The notes beneath the pieces are model-generated. The model worked only from the letters and a program-made list of their open reading frames with translations, was not told the DNA's origin and searched no databases. This document shows positions 35,551-52,163 of a stretch of DNA of 64,000 nt, one piece after another (position 1 is the stretch's first letter; every line of letters starts with the position of its first letter). A program made the position numbers and the translations under genes. Location of the stretch: NCBI GenBank assembly GCA_910573755.1, contig CAJTBO010000014.1, forward strand, positions 1-64,000, written 5' to 3'. Source of the stretch: Lachnospiraceae bacterium. GTDB taxonomy: Bacteria; Bacillota; Clostridia; Lachnospirales; Lachnospiraceae.

Positions 35551-36009
35551 ATGGCTTGTACAGAAGCATACAAAGAACATATCATGTATACGTTCAACGG
35601 CTTTTGCAAGACCGTCATACGCTTTGCGGCTATCAACGCATGGCGTGACAGGAGCAGACGGCGACAAAAAGAAATATCCCTTGAATACCTCACAGAAGAA
35701 AAGTTTTACCCTTTAGGCACAACAGACGAATATTTTGAAGCACCCTATGAAGAATACTCCATTACGATGTGCGGTCAGACAGTTATCCTCACCAACGGAA
35801 AACTTGCCGCCGCCCTGTTAGCTCTGCCGGAGAAAAACCGGGAAATCATTTTCCTTTACTTTTTCAGGCATTACACACAGCGGGAAATCGGGGAAATGTA
35901 CGGACGCTGCCGGAGTACGACCGGGTATCAAATCCATAGGACTTTACAACTCCTGCATAAAGAAATGGAGGTGCTTTCACATGGGGAATCCGAATCTTTT
36001 GCCTTATGA
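35551..36009 (+). CDS. Sigma-70-like factor of cassette A (Tn916 Orf7-like)
   Basis: 152 residues from the ATG after AGGGGG. Family: short sigma-70-like proteins of conjugative transposons. Helix block 1 (ACTEAYKEHIMYTFNGFCKTVIRFAAINAWRD, conserved in all three copies) resembles region 2; the C-terminal block (LPEKNREIIFLYFFRHYTQREIGEMYGRCRSTTGYQIHRTLQLL) is region 4 with its HTH. Overlaps the next gene by 29 bp. The two other copies are at 39066 and 51720. Likely redirects RNA polymerase to element promoters. Confidence 0.88.
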   Translation: MACTEAYKEHIMYTFNGFCKTVIRFAAINAWRDRSRRRQKEISLEYLTEEKFYPLGTTDEYFEAPYEEYSITMCGQTVILTNGKLAAALLALPEKNREIIFLYFFRHYTQREIGEMYGRCRSTTGYQIHRTLQLLHKEMEVLSHGESESFAL

Positions 36010-36193
36010 AACGATTGTCCGGGCGACCAGCGGAGAGCCGGAAGCCGTGGAAGAGGTTTTACGACATTACAGCAAGCGTATCCGTATGGCAGCCCTTGAA
36101 AATGGTCATATAGATACAGACACCGAGGATAGCATAAAACAGCGGCTTATCTCTGCTTTGTTCCGTTTTCGGTTTGACGGACAGGCTACATAA
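35981..36193 (+). CDS. HTH_16-type conjugative-transposon protein of cassette A
   Basis: 70 residues. NLLPYETIVRATSGEPEAVEEVLRHY is the helix-turn-helix domain typical of Tn916 Orf8-like proteins, followed by KRIRMAALENG and DTEDSIKQRLISALFRFRF. Overlaps the sigma gene, so the two are coupled. About 80-85% alike to the copies in cassettes B and C. Confidence 0.85.
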   Translation: MGNPNLLPYETIVRATSGEPEAVEEVLRHYSKRIRMAALENGHIDTDTEDSIKQRLISALFRFRFDGQAT

Positions 36194-36199
36194 TGGGAG

Positions 36200-36628
36200 G
36201 TGAGATTTGTCGGGAAAATAGTCATGCTTACATTCAATGGCACAGAAGAAAAAGCGATTGAAAAAGCCATAGCTGGCCTTGCCCATATAATACCGCTGGA
36301 CGCCATGCCGCCGCCACACTTCCCCACACTGATTTTTCCAGGATTGGAAATCAGATTACACCAACGCCGGGTACTGAAAGGCGGGGCAGACATAAATCTC
36401 ACCCGTTTAGAGTATGGCGCACTCTGTTGCCTTGCCACCAGTCCGGGGAGGGTATTTACAAAGGCGCAAATCTTTGAAACTGTATGGAGCATGGAAAGTG
36501 AAAGCTGCCAGTCAAGCGTTGCCAATGTAATTTGCAACTTGCGAAAAAAGATAGAGCCGGACAACCGCAAGCCTACCTACATAAAGACCGTTATAGGCGT
36601 GGGCTATAAGTTTGTTTCCAGAGAATGA
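36200..36628 (+). CDS. Orphan winged-helix (OmpR-type) protein of cassette A
   Basis: 142 residues or slightly fewer. It has the DNA-binding effector domain of response regulators (IFPGLEIRLHQRRVLKGGADINLTRLEYGALCCL, SPGRVFTKAQIFETVW, SSVANVICNLRKKIEPDNRKPTYIKTVIGVGYKF) but the N-terminal 50 residues are too short for a receiver and have no phospho-Asp pattern. The GTG start at 36200 lies within its own GGGAGG, so the ATG at 36224 is an alternative. It should bind DNA without phosphorylation control. Confidence 0.85.
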   Translation: MRFVGKIVMLTFNGTEEKAIEKAIAGLAHIIPLDAMPPPHFPTLIFPGLEIRLHQRRVLKGGADINLTRLEYGALCCLATSPGRVFTKAQIFETVWSMESESCQSSVANVICNLRKKIEPDNRKPTYIKTVIGVGYKFVSRE

Positions 36629-36706
36629 CAGACAGATTGCTATTGCCGGATAAATATAATATAATACCCTCAGTGAATCCCCATAGAATGTAAAGGAGAA
36701 AATCGT

Positions 36707-37006
36707 ATGGAAAAATTGATGTATATGATGATGATTGAGAAAAGCAAGACCTATAATAAAATGACAAAACAGGTAGTTATGGAACACGTTGAGAACATAA
36801 GAAAGCTGGACGATGAGGGAAAGCTGGAAATCTGCGGTGTCTTTAAAGGCTATCCGGGAATGGCAGGTATGTATATCCTAAAAACAGAGAGCCGTGAAGA
36901 AGCAGAAGAAATTTGCAAAGCAGAGCCGCTGGTTATGGGAGGATATGCAACCTACAAATTGGTTGGTTTGCAGATTGCAAACCGGGAAAATAATTACTTG
37001 CTGTAA
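36707..37006 (+). CDS. YCII-family small protein
   Basis: 99 residues. KSKTYNKMTKQVVMEHVENIRKLDDEGKLEICGVFKGYPGMAGMYILKTESREEAEEICKAEPLVMGG fits the YCII dimeric alpha-beta fold. Members are small enzymes or binding proteins of mixed function. Ribosome binding site AAAGGAG. It stands between the winged-helix gene and the cassette terminator, a place empty in cassettes B and C, so it is extra cargo. Confidence 0.75.
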   Translation: MEKLMYMMMIEKSKTYNKMTKQVVMEHVENIRKLDDEGKLEICGVFKGYPGMAGMYILKTESREEAEEICKAEPLVMGGYATYKLVGLQIANRENNYLL

Positions 37007-37093
37007 TTGCGAAAAGGAACAACACTGGGGCAAATTAAATCCGGCTTATTTGTAAACTGAATAACCGCCGCTACATGGAACGGCACACCAAGA

Positions 37094-37125
37094 CAGGAAA
37101 TCAAGAAAAGGTTTCCTGTTTTTTT
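37094..37125 (+). terminator. Terminator of cassette A
   Basis: CAGGAAA (37094-37100) pairs with TTTCCTG (37112-37118), then seven T. The same stem, loop and flanks recur at the end of cassettes B and C. Confidence 0.88.
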
Positions 37126-38348
37126 GCGCCCATTTTTGGCATTTTGAAAAATCGCCAGTATTATGCCGTGCAAAGGGGATAGAAAGAAATTTCCTCTCCC
37201 ATTTGGCAAATCCGCAAGCTGTCCGTGGAGGGCAGGCAAAGAGAAATTTCCGTAAATCTCCGCCTATTCCGGCTTGTGTGGTGTTGTAAGGAATAAGGGG
37301 AAATTTCCGCAAATCAACGTCCATTTTGCATTTTGCAGGTTTGTAGGTATCAGAGGGAGAAATGTTTCCGCAGCTTTGGCAAAATCCCCGTTTGCAACAC
37401 TAAAGGTATTGACGGAAGCCCACACAGAGGAAGCCGCCACTTTCTTAGAGTTATACCGAAAAGTAGATTATACCGAATTTTCTTCAGATATCCTTGAAAA
37501 TCGAGACTCGCCATTCAAAAATTCGGGATAAGATTTTTTCTTACAGATGGTAGCCAGCCTACAAAAATTCGGGATAAGATTTTTCTTGTTTCAATCTACA
37601 AGAACAAAATTTTTATTTTTTATGGCTAAATGAGAACCTGGCAATCAAAATCGTCAAAAATGTGATAAATATATGCGAACTAAAAAAATGTTATCCCGAA
37701 TTTTTTGTATAGCACTTCAAGACAGATGAATAAATATTATCCCGAAATATTCTTTAGAACAGCTTGTATTTGGAGACTCTTTCGTAAATATCGGGATAAG
37801 TCTTTTTTCGGTATAACTCTAAGAAACTGCGCTGTGTGGTATCTTCACTTACTATCCAGCTTTCCGGGGCTGGTTTATTGCGTTCCGGCGAAAATTTCTC
37901 ATGGAATTTTCTGATACCCTTGACGGACGGGGCGGGGATTCTGCCAAAGCTGCGGAAAAATTTCTCCCCCTAATACCTACAACACCACGCAAAGCAAAAT
38001 GGACGTTGATTTGCGTAAACTTCCCCTTAATCCTTACAACACCACACTTTGCGATTTTGCCAAAGATTTCATAAAATCTTAATATTTTTCTTTTTGCTTC
38101 CACGTCACATAAAAAGAGAAAACTGCCAGACAAAGCGGCAGTTATTTTCACTTTTCCCTTGTTACGCACGGCGGGCGTGAAATGGATAAGTTCTCTATCT
38201 TTTGTTGAAATTTCTTTTCGCTGAAATATACGGGCGGTTATTTGCCCCTCTATAACTTACTACGGGAAAAAATGAAATTTTGGCAACATTATCCGAAACT
38301 TTTTGAAGTTTTTCAGTCCGGCGCAAAATCCGGCTCGGTTCTGGGCGC
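37126..38348. other. 1.2-kb gene-free centre of the inverted segment
   Basis: No convincing gene. Both sides carry related sequence in opposite orientation, for example the stretch around 37290-37390 and the reverse complement of 37930-38030, sharing CAAATCAACGTCCATTTTGC. The middle (37441-37826) is a repeat-rich block listed separately. Short frames at 37274-37531 and 37852-38169 are chance products of the inverted arms. Confidence 0.65.
37441..37826. repeat. 386-bp block with 22-bp perfect terminal inverted repeats
   Basis: The ends (37441-37462 and 37805-37826) are perfect inverted copies containing TTAGAGTTATACCG. Inside are five copies of the motif TTCGGGATAA or its complement (37522, 37568, 37691, 37737; a one-base variant at 37790), most flanked by A/T runs. 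It is too short for a transposase gene. It may be a miniature element or a cluster of protein-binding sites. Confidence 0.8.
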
Positions 38349-38380
38349 AAAAAAACAGGAAACCTTTTCTTGATTTCCTG
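38349..38380 (-). terminator. Terminator of cassette B
   Basis: Minus-strand CAGGAAA / TTTCCTG stem with a seven-base T-run (38349-38355 on the plus strand as A). Same design as cassettes A and C. Confidence 0.88.
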
Positions 38381-38431
38381 TCTTGGTGTGCCGCTGTGAT
38401 GGGTGGCGGTTATTCTGTTGTCTGGTGTTAG

Positions 38432-38860
38432 TCATTCCCCGGAAGCAAACTTGTAGCCTATGCCTAAAACTGTCTTTATGTAAGTGGGATTTTTGCTGTC
38501 CGGCTCTATCTTTTTCCGCAAATTGCATATCACACTGGCAACGCTTGACTGGCAGCTTTCGCTTTCCATGCTCCACACGGATTCAAAGATTTGCGCCTTT
38601 GTAAATACCCGCCCCGGACTGGCGGCAAGGTAGCAGAGTGCGCCGTACTCCAAACGGGTGAGATAGATGTCTGCACCGTCTTTCAGTACCCGGCGTTGGT
38701 GTAATCTGATTTCCAATCCCGGAAAAACCAGTGCGGGGGAATGGGGCGGCTGTATGGCTTCCAGCGGTATCATATCGGCAAGGGCGGCTATGGCTTTTTC
38801 AACCGCTTTTTCTTCGGTGTCGTTGAATATAAGCATGACTATTTTCCCGACAAATCTCAC
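38432..38860 (-). CDS. Orphan winged-helix protein of cassette B
   Basis: 142 residues, same architecture as the cassette A protein: short N-terminus, then FPGLEIRLHQRRVLKDGADIYLTRLEYGALCYLAASPGRVFTKAQIFESVWSM and a wing reaching GIGYKF. No receiver domain. The start codon overlaps GGGAGG as in copies A and C, so this odd start context is conserved. Confidence 0.85.
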   Translation of the reverse strand: MRFVGKIVMLIFNDTEEKAVEKAIAALADMIPLEAIQPPHSPALVFPGLEIRLHQRRVLKDGADIYLTRLEYGALCYLAASPGRVFTKAQIFESVWSMESESCQSSVASVICNLRKKIEPDSKNPTYIKTVLGIGYKFASGE

Positions 38861-38866
38861 CTCCCG

Positions 38867-39079
38867 TTATGTCGCCTGTTCATCAAAACGGAACTGTAAC
38901 AGGGCAGCGATAAGCCGCCGTTTGATGTTGTCCTCGGTGTCCTTGTTGACCTGTCCGTTTTCAAGGGAAGCAAGCCGGATTCGCTTGCCGTAATGCCGTA
39001 AAACCTCGTCCACCGCTTCCGGCTCTCCGCTGGTCGCTCGGACAATGGTTTCATACGGCACAAGTTTAGGATTCCTCAC
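38867..39079 (-). CDS. HTH_16-type protein of cassette B
   Basis: 70 residues: PYETIVRATSGEPEAVDEVLRHYGKRIRLASLENGQ and a C-terminal helix. It overlaps the sigma gene by 14 bp. Closest relatives in the window are the copies at 35981 and 51533. Confidence 0.85.
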   Translation of the reverse strand: MRNPKLVPYETIVRATSGEPEAVDEVLRHYGKRIRLASLENGQVNKDTEDNIKRRLIAALLQFRFDEQAT

Positions 39080-39509
39080 GGAAAATCACCTCCATTTCTT
39101 CATGTAACATTTGCAAGGCACTGTGTATATGATGCCATGCCGTATTCCGGCAGCGTCCGTATAGCTCCCCGATTTCCTGCTGTGTGTAACGCCCGAAAAA
39201 GTAAAGGTAGATGATTTCCCTCTTTTTCTCCGGCAGAGAGGACAGGGCTTCGGCAAGCTCTCCGTTCGTAAGGATAACCCTCTGACCGCATATCGTAACC
39301 GGGTATTGCTTACAGGGGTCTATAAAATACTTATCTGTTGTACTGAATGGGTAAAACTTTTCTTCGGTGAGGTATTCAAAAGATATTTCTCTTTGCCGCC
39401 TCCTATCCCTGTCACGCCATGCGTTGATAACTGCATAGTGTATGACTACTCTGCAAAAGGCGTTAAATGTGTATTCGATATGCTCCTTATATGCTTCTGT
39501 GCAAGTCAT
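39066..39509 (-). CDS. Sigma-70-like factor of cassette B
   Basis: 147 residues starting at MTCTEAYKEHIEY after a GGGGGA ribosome binding site. Same region 2-like and region 4-like blocks as the cassette A protein (LPEKKREIIYLYFFGRYTQQEIGELYGRCRNTAWHHI). It lies 54 bp after the BlaR1-like gene on the same strand, with no terminator visible between, so the BlaI-controlled promoter may drive the sigma cassette. Confidence 0.88.
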   Translation of the reverse strand: MTCTEAYKEHIEYTFNAFCRVVIHYAVINAWRDRDRRRQREISFEYLTEEKFYPFSTTDKYFIDPCKQYPVTICGQRVILTNGELAEALSSLPEKKREIIYLYFFGRYTQQEIGELYGRCRNTAWHHIHSALQMLHEEMEVIFREES

Positions 39510-39562: not shown

Positions 39563-41095
39563 TCAATTTGATTCTATTTTATATTCATATGGATAATAGC
39601 TTTGCAATTCGTCTATGTCTATTTCTTTTCCTGCATACTCCTTAAACCAGTTTTCATAATTTGGATTATTCCAAACTGTGCCATCTTCAAAAACAACCTG
39701 CTTTAAACAAAGTAATGAATATGCAACTTGATTCGCTTCTCCGTTCCCGACTTTCAAAAAGTCCCCCATGATTTCACCATCATATAATGACCATCCGCCA
39801 CGGTATTCCTCGGTTTGATTGGATAGAATGTTCGCCTTTGTCCGAACAATATTTTCAAAGCTGCTTTCCGTACTGCTGTCAAGGAAATTCCAATATAGCT
39901 TTAATGGTGAACCGTTTTCGCTATAAGCCAGCATACAATATTGGGTTTCTACAATGGTACTGTCGGTATTGTTTGTAAGTATATCGTGGATATAAGGTGC
40001 GCCATCTTCATAATGGAGAATATCTGCGCTTTCATGTATAATTGTCATAGCGCTTTTTTTGTCTGTAATATCATCGCTTGTAGTTGTTTTTCGTTCACTG
40101 ATAACTGGTGTATCATTTGCTTTATTATCAGCCTGAGCCATTGCAGAAGTGGCAAACAAACTAACGGTAACAAATACGATAATACAGGCAGATAAAAGAG
40201 CAGTGATTGTCGTTCGTTTTGTGTTCATAATTGCTGTAATCCTTTCCTCAATGGCATTTTTACTAAAATTGCTGCAAAGCGGTGACAGCCCGCTTTTCTT
40301 TGCTTCCATACTGATAAGCATTAGCGAATAGGCAGATTTTGATTTATCTCCAAATTGTTTTATAACGCTTTCATCACATGCAAGCTCAATATCACGATTA
40401 AAGAGAACGTACATTACCCAGACAAAAGGATTGAACCAGTGAACACAAAGGGCATATGTAGCAATCAGCTTTGTAATGGTATCAAAACGATATATATGCA
40501 CATATTCATGTGAAAAAATATATTGTAACGGCTCTGTATTTTCCCAGTCTGTTTGTTTCGGCATTAAAATAACAGGATGTAAAATACCATATGTCAACGG
40601 TGTAGAAATTCTATCCGATTGTTTAATCGAAATTCGCCGTTTTAAGGGGCGTTCTTTAATCCATTGCTCTACATAGGGATTATTGACTGGTAAAGCTGCC
40701 CGAAACTCAATTCGGCAACGTAAATAAGATACCATGAAAAATGCTGCAAAAAGTATCATTCCAATACACCAGACAACAAACCAAACAGAAACGGATGGAA
40801 TATCTGTTACTGGCTGCCCCATGCCTTGTATCATCATAAAATATTCCCGTGATACGGCAGAGGCAGCATTGTTTGTTTCTGCTTCAAAAAATGCGGGCGT
40901 TGATATATTGTGGTTAATAAGCGTATATATACTGAACGCAGACGGAATAGTAAATGGAATAATCAGCCTTAAAAGCACCATTTCCCACAAAACAAGAAAT
41001 GTTTTTTTAGGCAGACTATTTATTGCTACTGCCCGAATCATCACAACCGCAATAATAAAAATAGCCCCTGAAAAGCTCACTTCCAGCAAAGTCAT
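39563..41095 (-). CDS. BlaR1-like M56 membrane metallopeptidase with non-penicillin sensor domain
   Basis: 510 residues from the ATG after GAGGTG. Four membrane segments in the N-terminal half, with the M56 zinc motif HEYVH in IFSHEYVHIYRFDTITK and a downstream ELACDESV helping to bind the metal. The last membrane helix (near TTITALLSACIIVFVTVSLFATS) leads into a C-terminal extracytoplasmic domain of about 190 residues that lacks the SxxK and KTG motifs of penicillin-binding sensors. It therefore senses some other signal and then cleaves the BlaI-type repressor. The next gene on the strand is the sigma factor. Confidence 0.88.
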   Translation of the reverse strand: MTLLEVSFSGAIFIIAVVMIRAVAINSLPKKTFLVLWEMVLLRLIIPFTIPSAFSIYTLINHNISTPAFFEAETNNAASAVSREYFMMIQGMGQPVTDIPSVSVWFVVWCIGMILFAAFFMVSYLRCRIEFRAALPVNNPYVEQWIKERPLKRRISIKQSDRISTPLTYGILHPVILMPKQTDWENTEPLQYIFSHEYVHIYRFDTITKLIATYALCVHWFNPFVWVMYVLFNRDIELACDESVIKQFGDKSKSAYSLMLISMEAKKSGLSPLCSNFSKNAIEERITAIMNTKRTTITALLSACIIVFVTVSLFATSAMAQADNKANDTPVISERKTTTSDDITDKKSAMTIIHESADILHYEDGAPYIHDILTNNTDSTIVETQYCMLAYSENGSPLKLYWNFLDSSTESSFENIVRTKANILSNQTEEYRGGWSLYDGEIMGDFLKVGNGEANQVAYSLLCLKQVVFEDGTVWNNPNYENWFKEYAGKEIDIDELQSYYPYEYKIESN

Positions 41096-41105
41096 ACTTA
41101 TCACC

Positions 41106-41465
41106 TCATTCCAAATCTGAAACAATTTTTTTCAGTTTTTCGATTTCTTCGGCAGAGAGTTTTTTTCTGCTCAACAGGGCAGCAAATAATTTGTCCGCAG
41201 AACCATCATAAATTTTGTTAATCAGTTCATTCGTTTCGGCTTCCTGTACTTCCTCTTTGGGAATAAGTGCATGACACATGAAATTAGGTTCGGAACGTTC
41301 AATAGCTCCCTTTTTTATACACCTTTTTATCAGTGTATAGGTGGTATTCATGTTCCAGCCGATTTCCTCTTTCAGAACATCGGATATATGTTTTGCCGTG
41401 GTATCGCCCTCACTCCAAAGCACACACATTACTTTCAATTCTGAATCGAAAAGTTTAATATCCAT
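41106..41465 (-). CDS. BlaI/MecI-family repressor
   Basis: 119 residues, start at MDIKLFDSELKVM after AGGAGG. N-terminal winged helix (LKVMCVLWSEGDTTAKHISDVLKEEIGWNMNTTYTLIKRCIKKGAI) and C-terminal dimerisation helices that are the cleavage target of BlaR1-type proteases. It binds the dyads in its own promoter and represses the repressor-protease operon. No beta-lactamase gene is nearby. Confidence 0.92.
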   Translation of the reverse strand: MDIKLFDSELKVMCVLWSEGDTTAKHISDVLKEEIGWNMNTTYTLIKRCIKKGAIERSEPNFMCHALIPKEEVQEAETNELINKIYDGSADKLFAALLSRKKLSAEEIEKLKKIVSDLE

Positions 41466-41598: not shown

Positions 41599-41869
41599 GA
41601 TAGGGATTCCGTAGTAGTCGGCATTGTGCGTAATGTGTATAACTGGCTGTCTTATGGAATTATGGGTAACTCTGTTTGCAGGACGTGGGAAAGCTGCACT
41701 TTCGCTTTTCCATGTGCTGTGAATAGAGTTATCCATGATTCCATAGCCAGTTATACACATTTCCACAATGCTTATCTTTTGGTCTTTGGCTTCTTTGGTT
41801 CGGAATAGTGTGGTGCTGGCGGTCTATCTCTTGTTTTCGGTTGCTTGCTTCTTTACCGTACATGAGCAT
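41599..41869 (-). repeat. Outer inverted repeat, right copy, with near-palindrome copy R
   Basis: Reverse complement of 34185-34455. It contains near-palindrome copy R at 41602-41770, in which TGTGTATAACTGGCT near the start pairs with AGCCAGTTATACACA near the end, and TAACTCT with AGAGTTA inside. Confidence 0.9.
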
Positions 41870-42404: not shown

Positions 42405-42575
42405 TCACTGTTGCGGGATAAGCCCCCGGCGCGTGACATACTCCGTTGCAAAACGGCGGTGTTCCGCTTCCTTTTCCCGCCAATACTCCCATAATGCAGC
42501 GTCGGCGGCTTCCGCAACATTCATTAAAAACCGTTCAAGCTGCTTTTGTTTTTCCTCTGCGCTACGTTTCCTCAT
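42405..42575 (-). CDS. Small conjugation-module protein
   Basis: 56 residues, start at MRKRSAEEKQKQLERF after AGGAGG. Highly charged and helical (FLMNVAEAADAALWEYWREKEAEHRRFATEYVTRRGL). It overlaps the end of the coupling protein gene by 14 bp. Small proteins of this kind are common between virD4 and Maff2 in firmicute elements; role unknown. Confidence 0.65.
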   Translation of the reverse strand: MRKRSAEEKQKQLERFLMNVAEAADAALWEYWREKEAEHRRFATEYVTRRGLIPQQ

Positions 42576-43239: not shown

Positions 43240-45748
43240 GTAGGGTAGGAAAGTGCCGCCTTGCCGTATTTCTAGGGTAGGTCTGCACAGTCCCCCCTCA
43301 GAACCGTGCTTACAACTCTCGCTGTACACGGCTCCGTCTTTGCTTGGTCAATAAAAAACTCATTGGTTGTGAATCTTGATATGGCACTGTTTGCATACTA
43401 CAAGAGTTTTTCGCCGTTTGGCTATCATCGCACGCTCCCAATCCTCTTTTCCTTTCAGATTTTTGAGTTTGTTGATGTGATGAACCTCATAGCAGTCACT
43501 TTCGGTTGTACCACACAATTCACAAGTGTGTGCCTTTAGTCGCTTTTCAAACGTATTTACCGACATTCTGTATATCTGCGTTGCATAGGTAATTCTATTG
43601 GTAGGGTTCTTCACGTTTTTACTGTCAGCATATTTGGCAAAATAACATCTTTTCAGCCCCTGCTTTGTTTCATATGGGATACCCCATTCGCCTTTGCCGT
43701 CCTTAAACTTTCTTATCATTTTAGGTACAGAACTTCTATGCTTATTGGCAAGGGTTCGCAAGCAGCTATATTCCATCAGGTATGTCAGATAGCATAATCT
43801 GTTGAAATTACTCGCCAGACTGTAGTAATTGCATATCCCCCGCAACTCGCTGTTATAGCTTGACACTATTTCAAGGTCTGAAAGATGCAATAGTTCCGCC
43901 CGGTGGACTGGACGTAAATTTCCATTAAGTTCCTGTATTGCGATGCCTTTTGAAAAGATAAATTTGTGGATTTTATCCGAAAGAGGAACCACAAGTTCAA
44001 CTTTGTTGCTCATTGTTCGTTTAGCGTGTTTCATTTTGCCGACACGCTTTACTTTTGCGTCACGCCTTACACGAATGTCATAGCCAAGGAAGCGTGCATA
44101 ATTATTGCTGTGGGTAATAAGCGTCTTTTCATCACTTAATTCCATTTTCAGTGCCTGTCCGATAAACTCGGCAAGTTTTCGCTTGATTTCCACACAGTCT
44201 TCACGGCTTCCATTCACACCGACTAAAAAATCGTCCGCATACCGTATATATTTGATTTTCTTATCGGTCTGCGATTTAGCAGGAGTTTTCAGCACCAGTT
44301 TATGGATACGTTTGTATTCATTAATCCAGTTCTGCCGTTCCTCACCGCTTGATTCGTTGATGTGCCTTCGGGCTACCGTCTGTTTGCTTAACAATGCCCG
44401 GTATTCCGGCGTGTAGTTTTTTTCTTCATAAACATCGAAATCAGCTTTTAGCTTCATCACAAATTTATCCAGCTCATGAAGATAAATATTGGCGAGTATC
44501 GGTGAGATAATCCCGCCCTGTGGAGTTCCGCTGTATGTACCATAGTAGCGCCAATCTTCCATATATCCCGCTTTCATAAACTTGTGTATCAGCTTAATCA
44601 GCCGTGTGTCCTTGATTTTACTGTTAATCAGGCTTGCTAATACAGTGTGGTTAATGTTATCAAAACAGCCTTTAATGTCACCCTCAACGAACCACCTTGC
44701 CCCGGTAAATTCTTTTTTAATTCAGTCAGGGCAGTATGGCAGCTTCTGTTTGGTCTGAATCCATGTGAGCAGTTTAGAAAAACAGGTTCATATACGGCTT
44801 GCAGTACCATTCTAAGGGCTTCCTGTACCAGCTTGTCTGTGAATGTGGGTATCCCAAGCGGCCGCTTCTTTTTACTGTTTGACTTTTCAATGTAAGTTCG
44901 GCGTACCGGCTTAGGTTGATAGGTTTCATCTGTCAGCGATTTTATGATTTTTGCGATTTTTGTTTCGCTGAAACCATCTGCTGTGTCATGGTTTACCCCT
45001 TTTGTTGCCGCTCCATTATTGGCATACAGATTCCTGTACGCTTCATAATAGATGTCAGGGCGCAACAGGTAACGGTATAACTTGGTGAATACTTCTTCTT
45101 TGTTACGGTTTGAGTTCTTATTGATTCTTGCTAAAATCTCCATTGTTGGTTTCATTATGAGGTTTTCCTCCCTAATCAATTTTTGATTTTAGTACGCATT
45201 GACTACGCCCCTTCGCCATGTGAGCGGCGTTACCGCTTCCGGTTTTACGGCTATCCCTGTCAGTTCAGGGTTCTCGGACTACTACGGGCGTTCCGTACCC
45301 ATGCAGGATATTCAGGCTCTGCGCCATAGCCAGTTCATGGCATTCCTGTTTAGGGTATCCCCAGTTAGCACTCTGCCTCGGTAAGTGTGGATTGTCGGCT
45401 CTGCTTTCGTTTCGTTAATACAGGTTCTCCTGCTTGTCACGTGTGATTGTGATAACCGTTTACTAACGTTCAAGTAGCAAACGCCACACGTCAGAGGTTA
45501 CAGGCACTTTCCTCCGTCTGGACGCAACAGAAACTTGAAACTCACATTCAGTAAATCCAACTTAAACCTCATATCCACTTGGTCTTGCGGTTCAGTCGTG
45601 CCCGATTGCCTTTGGGCAACTTACCGCTTCCCTGCCGTGCTGTGTTCCCGTGTCAGCTTTCGCCTTTCGGTCAGGCAGGCGACCTCCCGCGTTATCATGC
45701 GGAACAGTACCAATAATCTGCAATGCAAAATGCCCTATCTGGGCGCAC
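43240..45748 (-). mobile_element. Group II intron in coupling protein gene
   Basis: 2509 bp. On the minus strand the intron begins GTGCGCCC after exon end GACACCTTT and ends CTACCCTAC before AACTTTGTC, giving the canonical GUGYG start and AY end. Removing it restores the pcfC frame. It encodes a reverse transcriptase with YADD and an HNH endonuclease domain. The 5' part (45180-45748) holds the ribozyme domains I-III, the last 120 bp domains V/VI. Confidence 0.92.
43360..45155 (-). pseudogene. ltrA: Group II intron reverse transcriptase-maturase-HNH, frameshifted
   Basis: Start at MKPTMEILARINKNS after GGGAGG. Order: RT domain (RRTYIEKSNSKKKRPLGIPTFTDKL, FRPNRSCHTAL, GTPQGGIISPILANIYLHELD, IRYADDFLVG), maturase X domain, and C-terminal HNH (CELCGTTESDCYEVHHINKL, CKQCHIKIH). 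The frame changes by -1 at 44712-44718, exactly at A-AAA-AAG, after LTELKK. Downstream sense continues as EFTGARWFVEGDIKG. Either one A was lost from a run of seven, or the heptamer is a working slippery site. Confidence 0.85.
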
Positions 45749-46346
45749 AAAGGTGTCGTCGGTGTCGCTGATAATCACGAAAAGGGCGGTCTTTCTGTCG
45801 CCTATGGTGTCAAGCTCCATTTCGTCGGTTTCCATAAGCTCCCGCAGCTCCTTAATGTCGAATGGGGCTAACCTCGCGCCGCATGAGATAAGTATGCTTT
45901 TTGCGGTCTTGCCCGCCGCAAGTTTGTATTTTTTGTACTGCTTGACTGCAAAATGTTCCGGGTCTTTTTCTTCCAGACGTTCAAACATGAGGTCAACCGG
46001 GTTCTGGAAGTCCTCGTCGTCCTCGCGGGCTTCCGACGCATTTATCATTTCAAGCAGCGTCGTGAAGTTCTTCTCGTCCTCCGGGGCTTCATACCAGATA
46101 TAGCCGATTAGCGCGGCGTAGTAGAGCTTTTCCGCTTTCACCCAGAAATCCTCGCCGGATTTTTCCCCGTCGCCTTTGGTGTTGGCGATAATGGTATTGA
46201 CTAACTTCAAAATGTCCTTTTCGCTCCGCAGATAGGCAAAGGGATTGTATTTCATGGATTTTTTGAAGTTAATCGTATTTAGCACTTTGATACGGTATTT
46301 GTACCGCTGTAACATTTTCCCGGTTTCCAAAATCAGTGTTCCTTTT
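45749..46346 (-). pseudogene. pcfC: Coupling protein PcfC/VirD4, middle part
   Basis: About 199 codons from PKGTLILETGKML to DTDDTF. Includes INFKKSMKYNPFAYLRSEKDI and GEDFWVKAEKLYYAALIGYI, typical of TcpA/VirD4 proteins. The expected preceding TDP is found at 57012, on the far side of the inserted element, so this stretch has no start of its own. Confidence 0.88.
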
Positions 46347-46387: not shown

Positions 46388-46573
46388 TCAGTTGGTTACA
46401 CTGTCCTTGTCATTCTCAATAAGCCGCACTACCTTGTCCGTAAAGGTTTCCCGGCTTGTTTCGCTGAAATGGATATGTATGTCAAAGGTGGTATTCCCTA
46501 TCCGCTTCACAAGGTCGGGCTTCGCATCCAGAGGGGCGGCGGTGCGGCTGGTCTTGCTGGTGTCATTGTTCAT
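46388..46573 (-). CDS. TnpW-like transposon protein
   Basis: 61 residues. PDLVKRIGNTTFDIHIHFSETSRETFTDKVVRLIEND matches the TnpW family of Tn4451/Tn4453-type elements. Function unknown. Overlaps the preceding ATPase gene by ATGA. It is the last gene before the left end of the element. Confidence 0.8.
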   Translation of the reverse strand: MNNDTSKTSRTAAPLDAKPDLVKRIGNTTFDIHIHFSETSRETFTDKVVRLIENDKDSVTN

Positions 46574-47421
46574 AGGCTCTCCTTTCCGTTCATCAGTCCT
46601 TTTAACCGTTCCATTTTCCCCTGTGCTGTGGATTTTCTGATATTTTCCCCGGTGAAGAATACCGGGCAGCACATTTCAAGCAGACGGTCATAAATCCGGG
46701 CATGGGCGGTGTCCTCCGGGTGCTGTAATTCCTCCAGCGTCAAATTCGTTGTGACAATTAGCGGCTTCCGGCTTCGGTATCGGCTGTCAACCACGTTGTA
46801 AACCTGTTCAAGCCCGTATTCCGTGCCGCGCTCCATGCCGAAATCGTCAAGGATAAGCAGAGGGAAGCGGCAAAGGCGGTCTATGTATTCGTTCCTGCCC
46901 TTGTAGCTGGCGGCAAGGTCATTGAGTATCAAGGCAAAATTCGTCATGCACACGGAAATCTCACGCTCCATAAGGGCGTTGGCGATACACCCGGCAAAAT
47001 AGCTCTTGCCTGTGCCTACCTTGCCCCATAGCAGATAGCCGATATTTTCCGCTTTCATTTCCTCCCAGTTCGCCGCATAGAATAAAGCCTTATCCATTTG
47101 GGGGCATTTGCCGTTGTCATTTCCAAAAGTCCACTGGCGCATGGCGGCGTTGGAAAATCCCCGGCGTTTCAGTTCTTCCACGGTGTCGCGGTGCTTGCGC
47201 TCCCGGTCGGCGGCTTCCTGCTTTTCCCGGCGTTTGCGCTGGCAGTCACATTCTTTCGGGTGTCGGTCACGTCCGAAAAGCCCCTTTCCCTCGGTGAAAT
47301 AGGCTTCTTTGGGCTGGCGGCAGCTCCCGCAATATAAAAGCCCGTCCTCGCCTGTGTAGTCCTCCGGCTCTGGCTCTGTTTCTGTGGCAAGCCGGAAAAT
47401 GGCGTTATCATAATCACACAT
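46570..47421 (-). CDS. DnaC/IstB-like ATP-binding protein
   Basis: 283 residues, start at MCDYDNAIF after GGAGG. An N-terminal cysteine cluster (LLYCGSCRQPK, CDCQRKR) may bind zinc. AAA+ core: LLWGKVGTGKSYFAGCIANAL Walker A, LLILDDFGMERGTEYGLEQVYNVVDSRYR Walker B and sensor region, LIVTTNLTLEEL. It is a helicase-loader-like protein that would help the RepA-type initiator copy the excised element. Confidence 0.88.
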   Translation of the reverse strand: MCDYDNAIFRLATETEPEPEDYTGEDGLLYCGSCRQPKEAYFTEGKGLFGRDRHPKECDCQRKRREKQEAADRERKHRDTVEELKRRGFSNAAMRQWTFGNDNGKCPQMDKALFYAANWEEMKAENIGYLLWGKVGTGKSYFAGCIANALMEREISVCMTNFALILNDLAASYKGRNEYIDRLCRFPLLILDDFGMERGTEYGLEQVYNVVDSRYRSRKPLIVTTNLTLEELQHPEDTAHARIYDRLLEMCCPVFFTGENIRKSTAQGKMERLKGLMNGKESL

Positions 47422-47485
47422 AAAATCGTCCTCCTTGTTCATGGTCTTATTCACGCCCTGTTTACGGGGCGTTTTATCTCCGCTG

Positions 47486-48235
47486 TCAAAGGCTCTCGCC
47501 CTCTTTGAAAGAATAATCGGGGATTCCCTTTTTCGGGTTCTCCTTTTTCTCCCTGTCCGCCCACCTGTAAAGCGTGGCGGCATGGTTCGCATAGTCATTC
47601 CCGCTGGAAGCAATGTACCGGCTCATTTCCTCAATAAGCCGTTCAAGGCAGTCCGGGTATTCCTGCTTCAGCTCCGCATACTCGCTTTCAGTGAGGAAAA
47701 CATTCTGGTATTTGCCATAGGGCGCGGGCGGCTCTCCACTCGCTCCCATTCGTTGGCTCTCTTTTAGTTTGTTTATATTTAGTTGGTTAGGGTAAAGTTT
47801 TCTTTGTATCATAGGTAAAGTTTTCTTTGTGTCTGATGTACAGTTTTCTTTAGGACTGACATCAAGATTTCTTTGTGTCATATCTAAAGAAACCTTTACT
47901 ACTTCCGGCACTTTCACATAAAGGCGGTTCGGCGCGGAAAATCCCCGGCGTTCCCTCTCTAAAAGCCCGGCAATATCCAGTTCTTTTAGGGAGTTCTGTA
48001 TTGTCATGGTGCTTTTATCCAGTATTTCCGCTATCTCTGCTATGGGGTAGACAATATACGTCCTGCCCTCATTGTCCTGCCAGCCGTTCTTCTGTGAGAG
48101 GGTGGAACGGTCAAGGAGCAGCGCATAAAGCAGCTTTGCAGTCTGTGACAAGTCCATTTTCAGCAGAAATCGGGGATAGGGGAAAAAGGGCGGCATTGTG
48201 GTGTTGGCTGTAATGTATTCGGTTATGGTTTTCAC
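47486..48235 (-). CDS. repA: RepA-N-type replication initiator
   Basis: 249 residues from a GTG that overlaps the stop of a short upstream frame (GTGA) and follows AGGAG. TMPPFFPYPRFLLKMDLSQTAKLLYALLLDRSTLSQKNGWQDNEGRTYIVYPIAEIAEILDKSTMTIQNSLKELDIAGLLERERRG is the RepA_N winged-helix domain. The C-terminal part (YPDCLERLIEEMSRYIASSGNDYANHAATLYRW) is DnaD-like. It would start replication of the circular form. ATG 48196 is an alternative start. Confidence 0.88.
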   Translation of the reverse strand: MKTITEYITANTTMPPFFPYPRFLLKMDLSQTAKLLYALLLDRSTLSQKNGWQDNEGRTYIVYPIAEIAEILDKSTMTIQNSLKELDIAGLLERERRGFSAPNRLYVKVPEVVKVSLDMTQRNLDVSPKENCTSDTKKTLPMIQRKLYPNQLNINKLKESQRMGASGEPPAPYGKYQNVFLTESEYAELKQEYPDCLERLIEEMSRYIASSGNDYANHAATLYRWADREKKENPKKGIPDYSFKEGESL

Positions 48236-48366
48236 CTCCTGTCTGTGGCTTCTGTTACGCATTTAAAACGGCTTTTTTGGGGGTAAAGGATAAAAGTACC
48301 GCATACCCGTTGAGCAGTAGCCGGGAAGCCTTGATTTACGGGGGTTCTGTGTTTTCTAAAGCGTGA
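48232..48366 (-). CDS. Short leader-like frame before repA
   Basis: 44 codons ending with FILYPQKSRFKCVTEATDRR. Its stop codon overlaps the repA GTG. A similar peptide end (YPPKPRFYCVT) precedes the DUF6017 initiator at 59278. Its 5' part overlaps the Cys_rich_VLP gene. Expression is unproven; it may couple translation to repA. Confidence 0.35.
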   Translation of the reverse strand, partial: SRFRKHRTPVNQGFPATAQRVCGTFILYPQKSRFKCVTEATDRR

Positions 48367-48722
48367 CATTTCCCCCTCTGTTTCCGCTTGCGCTGTGCGG
48401 CTCTGGTTCTTTTCATGCGTCCAGCGCAATCGGGGCAGTATTTCCCCCGGTTGGATTTTGGGAGAAACTGACCGCCGCACTCGGTACAGTGTTTCAGTTC
48501 TGCCCGGTGCAAAAGGGCGGCTTCCAGTTTCCAGTCAAGGGGAAGCACGGCGGCAGTGAACCAGCGGCAGAGAAGCGAATAGCTGATACTCTGGACGCAT
48601 ACACAAGGCTCGCCGTTATCCAGCACAATACAGTTGCCGTTATCGTAGTTACAGCACTCATGCACAAGGCGGCGGGCGGCTCTGTACTGTGGGTAGTCCA
48701 TGTAGGGGAGTTTACCGTTCAT
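48336..48722 (-). CDS. Cysteine-rich VLP-domain protein
   Basis: 128 residues. Cysteine pairs ECCNYDNGNCIVLDNGEPCVC and CTECGGQFLPKSNRGKYCPDCAGRM show the Cys_rich_VLP family, common in mobilizable firmicute elements. Two likely zinc knuckles and a basic tail (RTRAAQRKRKQRG) suggest nucleic-acid binding. Start overlaps the relaxase 3' end by 11 bp. Confidence 0.85.
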   Translation of the reverse strand: MNGKLPYMDYPQYRAARRLVHECCNYDNGNCIVLDNGEPCVCVQSISYSLLCRWFTAAVLPLDWKLEAALLHRAELKHCTECGGQFLPKSNRGKYCPDCAGRMKRTRAAQRKRKQRGKCHALENTEPP

Positions 48723-50352
48723 TTACCCGCCCCTTTCCGCGCTCTGGCTCGCGCCTTAAAATCTGCTCAATGTTGCCCTTTACGGTCTGCAATTCCTTTG
48801 TGCGTTCCCTCTTTTCCCGGTACTCGTTGTAAAGGGCGTTTTTCTCTTTGGTAAGCTGCTCAATCTCGGTCTGTAATGCTTTGGACGCTGGCAGCTTTTG
48901 GATTCCCTGTGCCTTAAAAAACCGGGTGGCAGCTTCGGCTATGATAAAATCGCTTTCGTGCTGCTCCCGGTAGTTCTTGCGGGCTTTCTCTGTTTTCTGT
49001 GCTTTCAGCCCGTCACGGGCTGGCTTGGTCTTGATGTACGCCAATAGCTGTTTCTGTAAGTCCTTTTTCTCCCGTAAAGTGCTTTCCACGGCTTTCAGTT
49101 TGGCATGGACGCTGTTCAGTTCCGCACTGGCGGCGGCAAGGGCGGCTTCCAGTTCTTCCGGGGAAGAAAAGCCGGATTTCTCGTAAACGCTCATGGTAGC
49201 CGCCATTTGCTTCAAGTTGTGCAAGGTCGCCCACTTTTCATAGCCCCGCCCCTTGCCCTCGGCTTTCTTGGCGGCTATGTCTACCATGCGTTGTACTCCG
49301 TCATTTTTCGGGGCGTTTATGGCGGCTTTGTTGCGCTGTAAGCGGTCTTTTATGCTGCGGGGGTATTCCTGTTGGGGTAGGGGCGTTTCGGCGGCTCTGG
49401 CGGCGTTCTGTGCGTTTATGGTGAGTGTTTCCAGCACGGCGGCACGGTCAAAATCATCACCTAATTTCCGGGCGGTGATGGGCTTCGTCCTGTCCGGCGT
49501 GAGATAGGATAGCCGCCCCCGGCTCTCCTTGACGGTCACGCCCTGTTGTAGCAGTTTCCCGGAGAAGTCCTCAAAAGAGATAGCAGAGGACAGGGCGGCT
49601 CGGATTGTGCGCCGTAGTTTCTCCTTGTCGGTTTCAAACTTGGTCTGCTTGGGCGGCTCTCCTGTGACAGCTTGGGAAGCGTTCCCTTTATCCAGTGCGG
49701 CTTGTCCTTTCCGTTTCGCCCAATACTCGCGCTCGGTAATGCGGTTCTTGCTCCCGTTCAGCAAGTCAATCTGATAGAGGTTTTCCCGGTGGCACATCTC
49801 CATGACTTCCGCTTTGAAATACTCCATAGCTGCGTCCGTACAGCGGTGCTTGCAGCCCTCCCTTGTGTCGGCTGGTCTTTCCATGTAGGGCAGTAACGGA
49901 ACTTCCGCAATCCTTAAAGAATTGATTACGATATGCACATGGATATTGCCGCTGTGGTTATGCCCGTCCGGGTGGGTGCATACCAACGCTTGGTGTCCGG
50001 GGAAATGCGTCTTGCAAAATTCCTCGCCCAATGCCTGCGCCCGGTCTACGGTCAAGCCGTTGTCGGGTGCGTCACGGGGGTCAAAACTGATAATGTAATG
50101 GTGGCTCTTTACGTCCTCCCGTTTTTGGTTCTTGCCGTATTTCAGATTGGAGCGCATACACGCTATGGCGAAATCTTCCCCGCCGCAATTCAGAGAGGAA
50201 ATGAGATAGCCTGTCCTCGGTATTATCTGCTCGTTTTTATCCAGTGTGGGCTTCATGGTAAACTCGTCATGCTCAAAGGTTAGGTACTGCTCGGCTGCTC
50301 CATAGTTGGCATTTTTAGAGCTGATATGTTTGAACGTTGCCAACGGCTTCAC
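48712..50352 (-). CDS. Relaxase/mobilization nuclease, MobP type
   Basis: 546 residues from a GTG start that lies inside the mobC 3' end. Motif III is GNIHVHIVINSL with the metal-binding HxH; SHHYIISFDP is an adjacent strand of the relaxase fold. The catalytic Tyr is probably in the N-terminal part (NYGAAEQYLTFE). Long coiled-coil C-terminus (residues 380-546, with KAVESTLREKKDLQKQLL and LQTEIEQLTKEKNALYNEYREKRERTKEL). It nicks oriT and leads the strand into a recipient through another element's channel. Confidence 0.9.
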   Translation of the reverse strand: MKPLATFKHISSKNANYGAAEQYLTFEHDEFTMKPTLDKNEQIIPRTGYLISSLNCGGEDFAIACMRSNLKYGKNQKREDVKSHHYIISFDPRDAPDNGLTVDRAQALGEEFCKTHFPGHQALVCTHPDGHNHSGNIHVHIVINSLRIAEVPLLPYMERPADTREGCKHRCTDAAMEYFKAEVMEMCHRENLYQIDLLNGSKNRITEREYWAKRKGQAALDKGNASQAVTGEPPKQTKFETDKEKLRRTIRAALSSAISFEDFSGKLLQQGVTVKESRGRLSYLTPDRTKPITARKLGDDFDRAAVLETLTINAQNAARAAETPLPQQEYPRSIKDRLQRNKAAINAPKNDGVQRMVDIAAKKAEGKGRGYEKWATLHNLKQMAATMSVYEKSGFSSPEELEAALAAASAELNSVHAKLKAVESTLREKKDLQKQLLAYIKTKPARDGLKAQKTEKARKNYREQHESDFIIAEAATRFFKAQGIQKLPASKALQTEIEQLTKEKNALYNEYREKRERTKELQTVKGNIEQILRREPERGKGRVNER

Positions 50353-50710
50353 CTACTTTCTGCAAGACTTCAAACTTCAAGGCGGCAAGCTCCGCTGTGG
50401 CGGCTCGCACTTCTTGGGAGAGTGCGTTATAAGGTGCGCCGTACTCGTTCAGACAGCGGGCAATCTGGTTCAAGTTGCCGCCGATTTTCCCATACTCGGC
50501 GGTTAGCTTCCCAACAGCAGAAAGTAATTCATCATTGACCGGGGAAACGGTGATTACCGGGCATATCCTTGACTTGGTGAGGGCTTGCCGGATAAACTCG
50601 GCTTGGCTCATTTTGCAGAGGGCGGCACGCTCGGAAAACTCGGCGTATTCTTCCCCGGTCAAGCGTGTTTTGATTACCCGGCGGCGGTGTGGCGTGTTGT
50701 ATTTTTTCAT
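50315..50710 (-). CDS. mobC: MobC-like relaxosome protein
   Basis: 131 residues, start at MKKYNTPHRRRVIKTRLTGEEYAEF after AGGAGG; upstream in-frame ATGs are ignored for lack of a binding site. Ribbon-helix-helix-like N-terminus (SERAALCKMSQAEFIRQAL) and MobC core GGNLNQIARCLNEYG. It helps the relaxase open oriT. Overlaps the relaxase gene by 38 bp. Confidence 0.9.
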   Translation of the reverse strand: MKKYNTPHRRRVIKTRLTGEEYAEFSERAALCKMSQAEFIRQALTKSRICPVITVSPVNDELLSAVGKLTAEYGKIGGNLNQIARCLNEYGAPYNALSQEVRAATAELAALKFEVLQKVGEAVGNVQTYQL

Positions 50711-50771
50711 GGCTGTGAACCTCCTTTCGTGGGTGGATTTTTCAAGCGGCGCAAGCCGCAAAAGGGCGGGC

Positions 50772-50793
50772 TTGGGGTGGCAACCCCAACAAG
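50772..50793. other. Candidate oriT hairpin of the nested element
   Basis: TTGGGGTGGCAACCCCAA (50772-50789) forms a 7-bp stem with loop GGCA and is followed by CAAG. It lies 62 bp upstream of mobC, the usual position for oriT. A look-alike hairpin followed by CAAG lies at 63948-63967. Confidence 0.55.
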
Positions 50794-50850
50794 ATTCCCG
50801 CAGGACAAAATGAGCCGGTAGGCGAAATTTGGTACTGTGGTAGAATCTTG

Positions 50851-50914
50851 CTCTTAGTAACTGACGGATTCCGCTGTGCTGGCTCTTAGTAACTGACGGA
50901 TTCCGCTGTGCTGG
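50851..50914. repeat. 32-bp tandem duplication
   Basis: Two perfect direct copies (50851-50882 and 50883-50914), each beginning CTCTTAGTAACTGACGG. They lie between the mob genes and the end of sigma cassette C, maybe at a junction. Confidence 0.9.
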
Positions 50915-51012
50915 CTTTCGCCGTTTTCCCCCGGCTTGCGTGGCGTGGATTCTGCCAATTTTGCGGCGGTATTTTCCCATACAGTAAAGCCGGAAATAAG
51001 CAAAATGGGCGC

Positions 51013-51046
51013 AAAAAAACAGGAAACCTTTTTCCTTGATTTCCTG
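51013..51046 (-). terminator. Terminator of cassette C
   Basis: CAGGAAA / TTTCCTG stem with a seven-base T-run on the minus strand. Same design as cassettes A and B. Confidence 0.88.
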
Positions 51047-51083
51047 TTTCGTATCTTCGCCAATAGCGGCGGTTATCCTGTTG

Positions 51084-51512
51084 CTATTCCCCGGAAGTAA
51101 ACTTGTAGCCTATGCCTAAAACGGTCTTTATATAGGTGGGGCGGCGGCTGTCCGGCTCTATCTTTTTCCGTAGATTGCATATCACATTTGCCACGTTTGA
51201 CTGGCAGCTTTCGCTTTCCATGCTCCACACGGCTTCAAAGATTTGCGCTTTTGTGAATACCCTCCCCGGACTGGCGGCAAGGTAACAGAGTGCGCCATAT
51301 TCCAGACGGGTGAGGTAAATGTCCGTGCCGTCTTTTAATACCCGGCGTTGGTGTAATCTGATTTCCAATCCCGGAAAAATAAGCGCCGGGGAGTGGGGCG
51401 GCTGTATGGCTTCCAGCGGTATCATATCGGCAAGGGCGGCTATGACTTTCTCAACCGCTTTTTCTTCGGTGTCGCTGAATGTAAGCATGACTATTTTCCC
51501 GACAAATACCAC
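51084..51512 (-). CDS. Orphan winged-helix protein of cassette C
   Basis: 142 residues. IFPGLEIRLHQRRVLKDGTDIYLTRLEYGALCYLAASPGRVFTKAQIFEAVW and the final wing match copies A and B closely. No receiver domain. The GTG lies inside GGAGG as in the other two copies. Confidence 0.85.
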   Translation of the reverse strand: MVFVGKIVMLTFSDTEEKAVEKVIAALADMIPLEAIQPPHSPALIFPGLEIRLHQRRVLKDGTDIYLTRLEYGALCYLAASPGRVFTKAQIFEAVWSMESESCQSNVANVICNLRKKIEPDSRRPTYIKTVLGIGYKFTSGE

Positions 51513-51532
51513 CTCCCGTTATGCAGTCCTTT

Positions 51533-51733
51533 TCAGTCAAAACGGAACTGGAACAGAGCGGTGATAAGCCGCTGTTTTATGCTGTCCTCGGTGTCTATGT
51601 TGACGTGTCCGTTTTCAAGGGCGGCAAAGCGGATTCTCTTGCTGTAATGCCGTAAAACCTCGTCCACGGCTTCCGGCTCTCCGCTGGTCGCCCGGACAAT
51701 GGTTTCATACGGTATAAGGTTAGGATTCCCCAT
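51533..51733 (-). CDS. HTH_16-type protein of cassette C
   Basis: 66 residues: MGNPNLIPYETIVRATSGEPEAVDEVLRHYSKRIRFAALENGH and a shorter end than copies A and B (it stops after QFRFD). Overlaps the sigma gene by 14 bp. Confidence 0.85.
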   Translation of the reverse strand: MGNPNLIPYETIVRATSGEPEAVDEVLRHYSKRIRFAALENGHVNIDTEDSIKQRLITALFQFRFD

Positions 51734-52163
51734 GTAAAAGCACCTCCATTTCCTCCTGCAACATCTGTAATGCACTGTGGATATAATGCCATGCCGTACT
51801 CTTGCATTGCCCGTATAAATCCGCGATTTCCTGCTGTGTGTAATTCCCGAAAAAGTAAAGGTAAATGATTTCCCTCTTTTTCTCCGGCAGAGATAGCAGG
51901 GCGGCAGCAAGCTCCCCATTGGTGAGTATGATTGTCTGACCGCATATCGTAACGGGGTATTGTTCGTAGGGTGATTTGAGAAATTCGTCTGATGTGCTTA
52001 GAGGGTAGAACTTTTCTTCTGTGAGGTATTCAAAGGATATTTCTTTTTGCCGCCGCCTGTTCCTGTCGCGCCATGCGTTGATAGCGGCATAGCGTATGAC
52101 AACTTTGCAAAAGGCGTTGAAAGAATACACGATATGTTCTTTGTATGCTTCTGTGCAAGCCAT
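51720..52163 (-). CDS. Sigma-70-like factor of cassette C
   Basis: 147 residues from MACTEAYKEHIVYSF after AGGAGG. Region 2-like VIRYAAINAWRDRNRRRQKEISFEYLTEEKFYPL and region 4-like LPEKKREIIYLYFFGNYTQQEIADLYGQCKSTAWHYIHSAL. Follows the radical SAM gene on the same strand with a 77-bp gap that holds a long stem-loop. Confidence 0.88.
   Translation of the reverse strand: MACTEAYKEHIVYSFNAFCKVVIRYAAINAWRDRNRRRQKEISFEYLTEEKFYPLSTSDEFLKSPYEQYPVTICGQTIILTNGELAAALLSLPEKKREIIYLYFFGNYTQQEIADLYGQCKSTAWHYIHSALQMLQEEMEVLLHGES

Follow-up and report, generated by a model that had tools for sequence, protein, structure and literature searches.

Three copies of a sigma factor block in one contig

The window analyzed here, a whole stretch of 64,000 nucleotides (nt) from a Lachnospiraceae contig (CAJTBO010000014.1, positions 1 to 64,000), carries three copies of a gene block for a sigma factor, an HTH_16 protein and a winged-helix protein. 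Copy 1 spans 35551-36628 on the forward strand, and copies 2 and 3 span 39509-38432 and 52163-51084 on the reverse strand, where the original prediction had placed them. By gene content and surroundings, we read each block as the control unit of its own integrative mobilizable element (IME), the three elements being related. Our analysis suggests that the sensor loaded in such an element may decide when it moves.

In copy 1, the sigma (35551-36009, +), HTH_16 (35981-36193, +) and winged-helix (36200-36628, +) genes encode proteins with Pfam matches to Sigma70_r4, HTH_16 and Trans_reg_C, respectively. Their counterparts lie at 39066-39509, 38867-39079 and 38432-38860 in copy 2 and at 51720-52163, 51533-51733 and 51084-51512 in copy 3, all on the reverse strand. 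From these coordinates, the sigma and HTH_16 genes overlap by 29 nt in copy 1 and by 14 nt in each of the other two. The third gene has a candidate GTG start within GGGAGGTG and an alternative candidate in the in-frame ATG at codon 9. Pfam found no receiver domain in the copy 1 winged helix, which with Trans_reg_C alone differs from an OmpR/PhoB response regulator.

DNA identity is 82% over 1099 nt between copies 1 and 2, 84-85% between copies 1 and 3, and 86-89% over the listed 300-nt stretches between copies 2 and 3. Relative to copy 2, the proteins of copies 3 and 1 are 78% and 69% identical for sigma, 82% and 76% for HTH_16, and 92% and 82% for the winged helix, so the single figure of about 80-85% given at first hides a spread of 69-92%. 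A recent local duplication, already doubted in the original prediction, is ruled out by the 82-89% DNA identity and by the separate IMEs with different cargo.

The terminator with CAGGAAA/TTTCCTG arms directly follows the triplet in copy 2 (38342-38393, −; sequence match) and copy 3 (51013-51046, −; read from the sequence). In copy 1, a YCII gene (36707-37006, +; Pfam) stands between the triplet and the terminator (37081-37132, +; an inverted 100% match to that of copy 2). Thus, the terminator predicted for every block is adjacent to the triplet in two of them only.

The predicted cargo genes are all supported by Pfam. Besides the YCII gene, copy 1 has a WYL/HTH_11 regulator gene (34453-35421, −) divergent from sigma. 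Copy 2 has genes for a BlaI-family repressor (41106-41465, −) and a BlaR1-like M56 peptidase with DUF5780 (39563-41095, −), and copy 3 those for an HxlR regulator (53986-54351, +; divergent), a flavin reductase (53292-53795, −) and a radical SAM protein (52240-53100, −).

A near-perfect hairpin of ~150 nt marks the left end of each window cargo. That of copy 1 (34284-34432) belongs to a left end at 34185-34443 (−) that cuts a rhamnosidase gene, is 95% identical to the copy 2 end and has a boundary common to many loci. In copy 2, hairpin (41610-41771) and left end occupy 41610-41869 (+) in maff2, with a DNA fold z of −12.0, and in copy 3 a sequence match places the hairpin at 54393-54554 (+). 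No U-tract is present at the end hairpin.

For relatives, one genome per species was scanned with the winged-helix protein, which gave 280 matches at E <= 1e-3, possibly including ordinary OmpR-type regulators, and the best 80 were kept with their flanks. A family-wide search with sigma at E <= 1e-35 found relatives in 26/397 genomes. The fetched set comprises 133 loci (L numbers) and the three window stretches; the 80 loci chosen by the winged helix and 40 further ones overlap, some being the same contig in two collections. It holds 106 sigma genes at >= 60% identity, in 82 distinct 600-nt contexts.

Most of the 80 relatives kept from the scan show the block gene order again, which places it beyond chance, although some are without sigma and HTH_16. 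By sequence, the element order is a left end (with the ~150-nt hairpin in most), cargo, sigma and HTH_16, an optional second slot, an intrinsic terminator and an oriT-like block. After the latter, intact members continue with mobC, relaxase, repA and dnaC genes and a serine recombinase gene. Identical sigma contexts in differently named records (for example, L056, L058, L060 and L061) point to recent spread.

A probable sigma factor encoded in two pieces

It is strongly indicated by profile and structure comparisons that sigma and HTH_16 are the parts of a split sigma factor of the extracytoplasmic function (ECF) type. HTH_16 would be its region 2.1-2.2, and the product of the "sigma" gene its regions 2.3-2.4, linker and region 4. 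The two proteins align to complementary parts of sigma profiles, the sigma regions being divided over both. TIGR02937 begins to match the sigma proteins no earlier than position 46-49 of 165, region 2.1-2.2 being absent.

HTH_16 lies directly downstream of the sigma gene in 113/114 cases where this gene is full-length (90/91 distinct contexts). Among long-frame Pfam HTH_16 matches, scanned in 10 of 15 fetched loci, 10/10 are full-length sigma factors with HTH_16 above the cut-off at the N-terminus. Of the VIA rows for the HTH_16 model, the ten best are all sigma factors, matched over their region 2. This structural support is moderate. Foldseek alone gave HTH_16 a best E of 1.2, with sigma region 2 at ranks 3, 5, 6 and 12. 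A profile search of PDB sequences with HTH_16 gave no sigma match. On RNA polymerase, the two would be expected to work jointly.

An exchangeable cargo slot before sigma

The slot upstream of sigma was bounded in 94 loci (73 after removal of identical contexts), leaving out loci without a left boundary and open reading frames (ORFs) under 80 aa. The ORFs in these slots number 222 and fall into 77 clusters; they make up 40 gene strings, if one empty slot is counted as a string. Therefore, sigma is not always accompanied by the same neighbours, a constancy that would have spoken against the predicted changeable cargo. Regulators were called from the Pfam matches of a single member of each cluster.

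A DNA-binding regulator is present in 34/39 non-empty strings. The 26 regulator clusters represent 12 families: TetR, OmpR-type, MerR, BlaI, HxlR, AraC, WYL, PadR, XRE, GntR, RpiR and MarR. The gene nearest the element end is a regulator in 30/39 strings, and the later positions are regulators in 5/60. A later regulator occurs in four strings, those of L063, L083, L142 and the tet type L164; in the first three, what precedes it has the look of a transposase or of a piece that was inserted or inverted. The effectors include cation efflux, histidine kinase, BlaR1, VanZ, DJ-1, radical SAM and tetracycline protection proteins.

The last cargo gene points towards sigma in 38 of the 39 strings, and the upstream neighbour is codirectional with sigma in 41/43 neighbour types. 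The sole exception among the strings is the WYL type, as in copy 1, where the regulator is divergent and the putative effector YCII comes after the pair. There, a promoter-like site found by scanning (GTGACA-16-TATGAT, 35443-35470, +) faces sigma across a GTGACA/TGTCAC palindrome, noticed by reading, that it overlaps.

Promoters and terminators around the pair

The promoter scans used one sigma-A consensus rule and detect sigma-A sites only. Within 120 nt upstream of sigma, 5/41 neighbour types have a promoter-like site, which is at the chance level of 4.3 in shuffles. Before the first codirectional cargo gene, the count is 15/25 as compared with 5.2 in shuffles (5-95% range, 2-8). The 31 regions between terminator and mobC have none, where shuffles gave 5.3 sites (5-95% range, 2-10). 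All these counts are indications, because the scanned regions are related to each other.

Thus, the cargo seems to have ordinary promoters, and the mobilization operon would seem to depend on another sigma factor. However, window copies 2 and 3 have promoter-like matches 74-112 nt before sigma. A crude finder put a terminator-like site between the upstream neighbour and sigma in 2/102 loci, in a comparison that omits two loci with a neighbour too far away. After the pair, 107/109 terminator copies fit the stem pattern, with 6-8 T in the next 9 nt. The promoter statistics favor that sensors would change sigma expression and that sigma would switch transfer.

Conservation before sigma, computed on 41 of the 43 neighbour types, falls below 1 bit beyond about −50. 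A weaker stretch of conservation, at 0.6-0.8 bit, spans −90 to −61, and in many types it coincides with a GC-rich hairpin. This leader hairpin (GGGGCGACAGC..GCTGCCGCCCC type; for example, 52263-52200, −) varies in sequence, and its stem persists by eye. It is a possible attenuator. RNAalifold on the sigma leader gave no result of use.

A 25-nt motif, GTAGTAAGTAATAGAGGGAGAAATA, lies between terminator and mobC in 52/94 loci at <= 6 mismatches, a count for a motif picked after looking. It is a candidate operator, iteron or promoter. Often it is found twice, ~165-190 nt apart (L065:6153 and 6318), and one form is flanked by TTTTCCC/GGGGAAAA.

A second variable slot after the pair

The slot from HTH_16 to the terminator, in its 124 occurrences, holds the winged helix in 83, the winged helix with YCII in 4, nothing in 9 and other ORFs in 9, and in 19 no terminator was found. 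Over 100 distinct contexts, the respective numbers are 62, 3, 9, 9 and 17. The winged-helix share is inflated, because the first 80 loci were chosen by this protein. By eye, the other ORFs include acetyltransferase-like and membrane proteins.

The triplet as an obligate unit is hence ruled out by the nine empty and nine otherwise filled slots. The unit is the doublet of sigma and HTH_16, and the winged helix, probably an accessory regulator, is among the various genes that fill a second slot. The predicted modular unit survives in that changeable sensor cargo sits on a fixed pair joined to a mobilization operon, and it fails in taking the triplet for the unit. Likewise, the cargo varies as expected, but the third gene is replaced or missing at some loci instead of staying fixed with the terminator.

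The winged helix is also encountered elsewhere. Searches of plasmids and phages with it gave matches under 60% identity only, in 5 and 18 records, respectively, at the E limits applied. At L145:4764-5203, the winged helix and the terminator, without sigma and HTH_16, follow kinase-, regulator- and lipoprotein-like genes, so named by eye. At L147:6001-8401, a 67% identical winged helix is directly 3′ of a gene for tetracycline ribosomal protection in this genome, and a sigma pair is not directly adjacent; neither the ends nor the hairpin of these IMEs were found in the 18 kb fetched there.

IMEs in and beside a conjugative element

Copies 2 and 3 are inside a Tn5252/Tn1549-like integrative and conjugative element (ICE) and copy 1 is beside it, each belonging to a separate IME as judged by gene order. 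Two layouts recur. Layout A runs from the ICE virD4 through maff2 codons 1-44, the end, hairpin, cargo, sigma, HTH_16, winged helix and terminator to MobC, relaxase, RepA, DnaC, serine recombinase and maff2 codons 41-70. Layout B runs from a DUF3801 gene through ~180 codons, recombinase, hairpin, cargo, pair and mobilization genes to the rest of virD4. These ~180 codons have no Pfam match and are read as the virD4 start.

The layout A ends are the inverted repeats GCTCATGTACGGTAAAGAAG and CTTCTTTATCTCACATGAG in 9/10 loci with a right maff2 junction, and L062 has the left repeat only. Judged against intact maff2 genes, a 2-bp AA repeat appears to result from the insertion. The left ends of many loci fall within maff2 and those of others in unrelated sequence. 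In L102, L116 and L132, nothing but the cargo, pair, MobC, MobA, RepA, DnaC, recombinase and small ORFs lies between the maff2 halves. Genes for type IV secretion were not seen there, virD4, DUF3801/PcfB-like and Maff2 being the only markers searched. The IMEs may be mobilized by a helper element.

Copy 3 is of layout B and lies in the virD4/traG region of the ICE. Beyond its cargo are the serine recombinase gene (54594-56945, −) and the DUF3801 gene (57539-58015). On the other side, the mobilization and replication genes (46570-50980) encode NikA/MobC (50315-50980, −), relaxase (48712-50352, −), RepA_N protein (47486-48262, −) and DnaC-like ATPase (46570-47613, −; IstB_IS21 match). The oriT-like block lies upstream of the NikA/MobC-like gene, whose true start is probably further in than that of the listed ORF.

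Copy 3 thus has its own relaxase, relaxosome gene and recombinase, all of which copies 1 and 2 are without. The layout A relatives have their own recombinase and defined ends. TnpW and Cys_rich_VLP genes also lie within the copy 3 element, at 46388-46573 and 48336-48722. The virD4 remnants at 45695-46330 and 42562-43329 are split by a group II intron (43240-45179, −), which shows an Rfam match at 43240-43336 and a maturase/HNH ORF at 43360-44577.

Copy 2 is of layout A in the maff2 of the ICE that hosts copy 3, where positions 1-43 of the 70 in the Maff2 profile remain. Copy 1 has layout A in inverted orientation and interrupts an alpha-L-rhamnosidase gene close to the 3′ end of that gene. Both end at CTTAGAG, the start of the oriT-like block. 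The mobilization and recombinase genes are absent after both, and each retains its left end only.

A ~385-bp insertion resembling a miniature inverted-repeat transposable element (37445-37829), placed exactly at CTTAGAG of oriT, connects copies 1 and 2 at their broken ends. It has TTATACCGAAAA ends and internal TTATCCCGAA-type repeats, and matches L128:4907-5290 at 96%. In L128, this relative sits between the terminator (4756) and mobC (5536).

Probable cassette exchange between layouts

The end hairpin fails as a universal left mark, bounding the cargo slot in just 73/105 loci with a called upstream gene. In the rest, the boundary is the end sequence alone (17), recombinase or maff2 (4) or none found (11). 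With identical contexts removed, the respective numbers are 53, 14, 4 and 10 of 81. Some loci have the hairpin on its own between virD4 and maff2, and it recurs at several further sites of this genome.

Two of the 43 neighbour types occur in both layouts. One is BlaI/BlaR1, for which L068 (A) and L098 (B) are identical by 94% in cargo, 83% in sigma, 82% in the hairpin and 89% in MobA. The contrast is small between L068 and L099 (B), with 86% in cargo and 82% in sigma. L157 (A) shares part of its cargo with L098 and L099, at 90-93% over ~1,550 nt, with sigma at 80-82%.

The other is the kinase/VanZ type. Compared with L128 (A), L100 (B) is 97-100% identical in the pair and winged helix and 90% in MobA, and L083 (B) is 91-92% and 88% identical, respectively. 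The cargo was left out here because L128 is without the hairpin. Since identities differ between the parts within L068/L098 and L128/L100/L083, it seems that cassettes, alone or together with the pair, have passed from one layout to the other.

Discussion

We consider it probable, from gene order and promoter statistics, that exchangeable sensors control the transcription of a promoterless split sigma factor that in turn activates mobilization. The sigma pair would have no sigma-A promoter of its own. When a sensor releases the cargo promoter, transcription would pass through the cargo into the pair and stop at the terminator. The reassembled sigma would then direct RNA polymerase to the mobilization operon, where no sigma-A-type promoter is seen. 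A cassette swap would accordingly change the signal that triggers mobilization.

A broader version is more tentative, and we hold it somewhat short of even. It takes the element for a sensor-exchange platform, in which the promoterless split ECF sigma would read any sensor-effector cassette that recombination has placed in the interval from end hairpin to sigma leader, and each swap would rewire the mobilization signal. The same split sigma would also underlie Orf7/Orf8 of Tn916-type elements.

Alternatively, the slot is a cargo hot spot without signaling, where the regulators serve their own effectors only and the pair is constitutive or has its own non-sigma-A promoter. The hairpin and leader could well be homology arms for cargo exchange, the leader hairpin recurs before sigma, and a non-sigma-A promoter would escape our scans. 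Nevertheless, the codirectional last cargo gene, the chance level of promoter-like sites before sigma and the WYL type, in which the effector follows the pair, make this rather unlikely.

It is improbable that the split sigma and the winged helix drive the cargo or second-slot genes as feedback instead of transfer, with the mobC adjacency incidental. The winged helix next to the tetracycline protection gene of L147 would suit such a role. However, cargo starts have ordinary sigma-A-like promoters, and the regions upstream of mobC have none. Least credible is that HTH_16 of the Orf8 type is an ordinary DNA-binding helper of a sigma acting alone, as database names, including that of Pfam, and the PDB profile search would have it, against the complementary alignments, N-terminal HTH_16 of full-length sigmas, structural rows, 113/114 adjacency and sigma gene without region 2.1-2.2.

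With the sensor-driven split sigma, the Orf7/Orf8-type pair of Gram-positive mobile elements gains a concrete reading as a sigma factor in two pieces. Gut IMEs that exchange signal-response cassettes could thereby set the time of their movement. If so, the spread of cargo, including resistance genes, would be tied to the signal that the cargo itself senses.

Sigma activity is shared between two small proteins in SigO-RsoA, the two-subunit sigma factor of Bacillus subtilis. This system is listed in a previous report (PMC10141391). Differently, an ECF-like sigma would here be cut between its regions 2.2 and 2.3, and the pair resides in mobile elements. We found no paper on HTH_16 in the open literature, and the papers inspected for split or two-subunit sigma factors in mobile elements contain no sigma terms; subscription journals were mostly outside this search, so absence from print is not proven.

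We take Orf7 and Orf8 of Tn916 to be sigma-like and HTH_16-type proteins. Their genes are likewise adjacent; in published work, the transfer genes are transcribed from the orf7 promoter once the element has excised, and models tie drug-induced cargo transcription, proposed to feed that promoter, to orf7 and transfer (PMC11658703, PMC7288454). Tn916 has its own orf7 promoter, whereas here none is seen before sigma, the cargo is different and the element is short and mobilizable.

The host IMEs themselves are of an already known kind. Passages of two reports place IMEs with serine recombinases in maff2, traG and snf2 of Tn5252-superfamily ICEs (PMC5357655, PMC5704250), and these share with ours the maff2 and virD4/traG insertion, serine recombinase, relaxase, replication genes and cargo. 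A sensor-first cargo slot, cassettes common to insertion families and a split sigma are not described in these passages.

IME_Rho_tet elements carry tet(W) in MAFF2 genes, with relaxase, recombinase and tetracycline protection genes together, a 21-bp terminal inverted repeat (TIR) motif, 5′-end cargo, mobC and "two putative transcription factors", according to parts of the report, whose main text is without the words sigma and HTH (PMC12904643). The maff2 insertion, terminal repeats, 5′-end cargo, mobC, relaxase and recombinase are alike in our elements. Those elements are defined in that text by tet genes, whereas the window elements carry other cargo, with no tet gene by Pfam, and copies 1 and 2 are without mobilization and recombinase genes. 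Layout A has a TIR pair of its own. L164-L166 show the IME_Rho_tet gene order, including a TetM/W/O/S-type protection gene in L164, and have sigma at 59-60% and HTH_16 at 55-57% identity without the winged helix.

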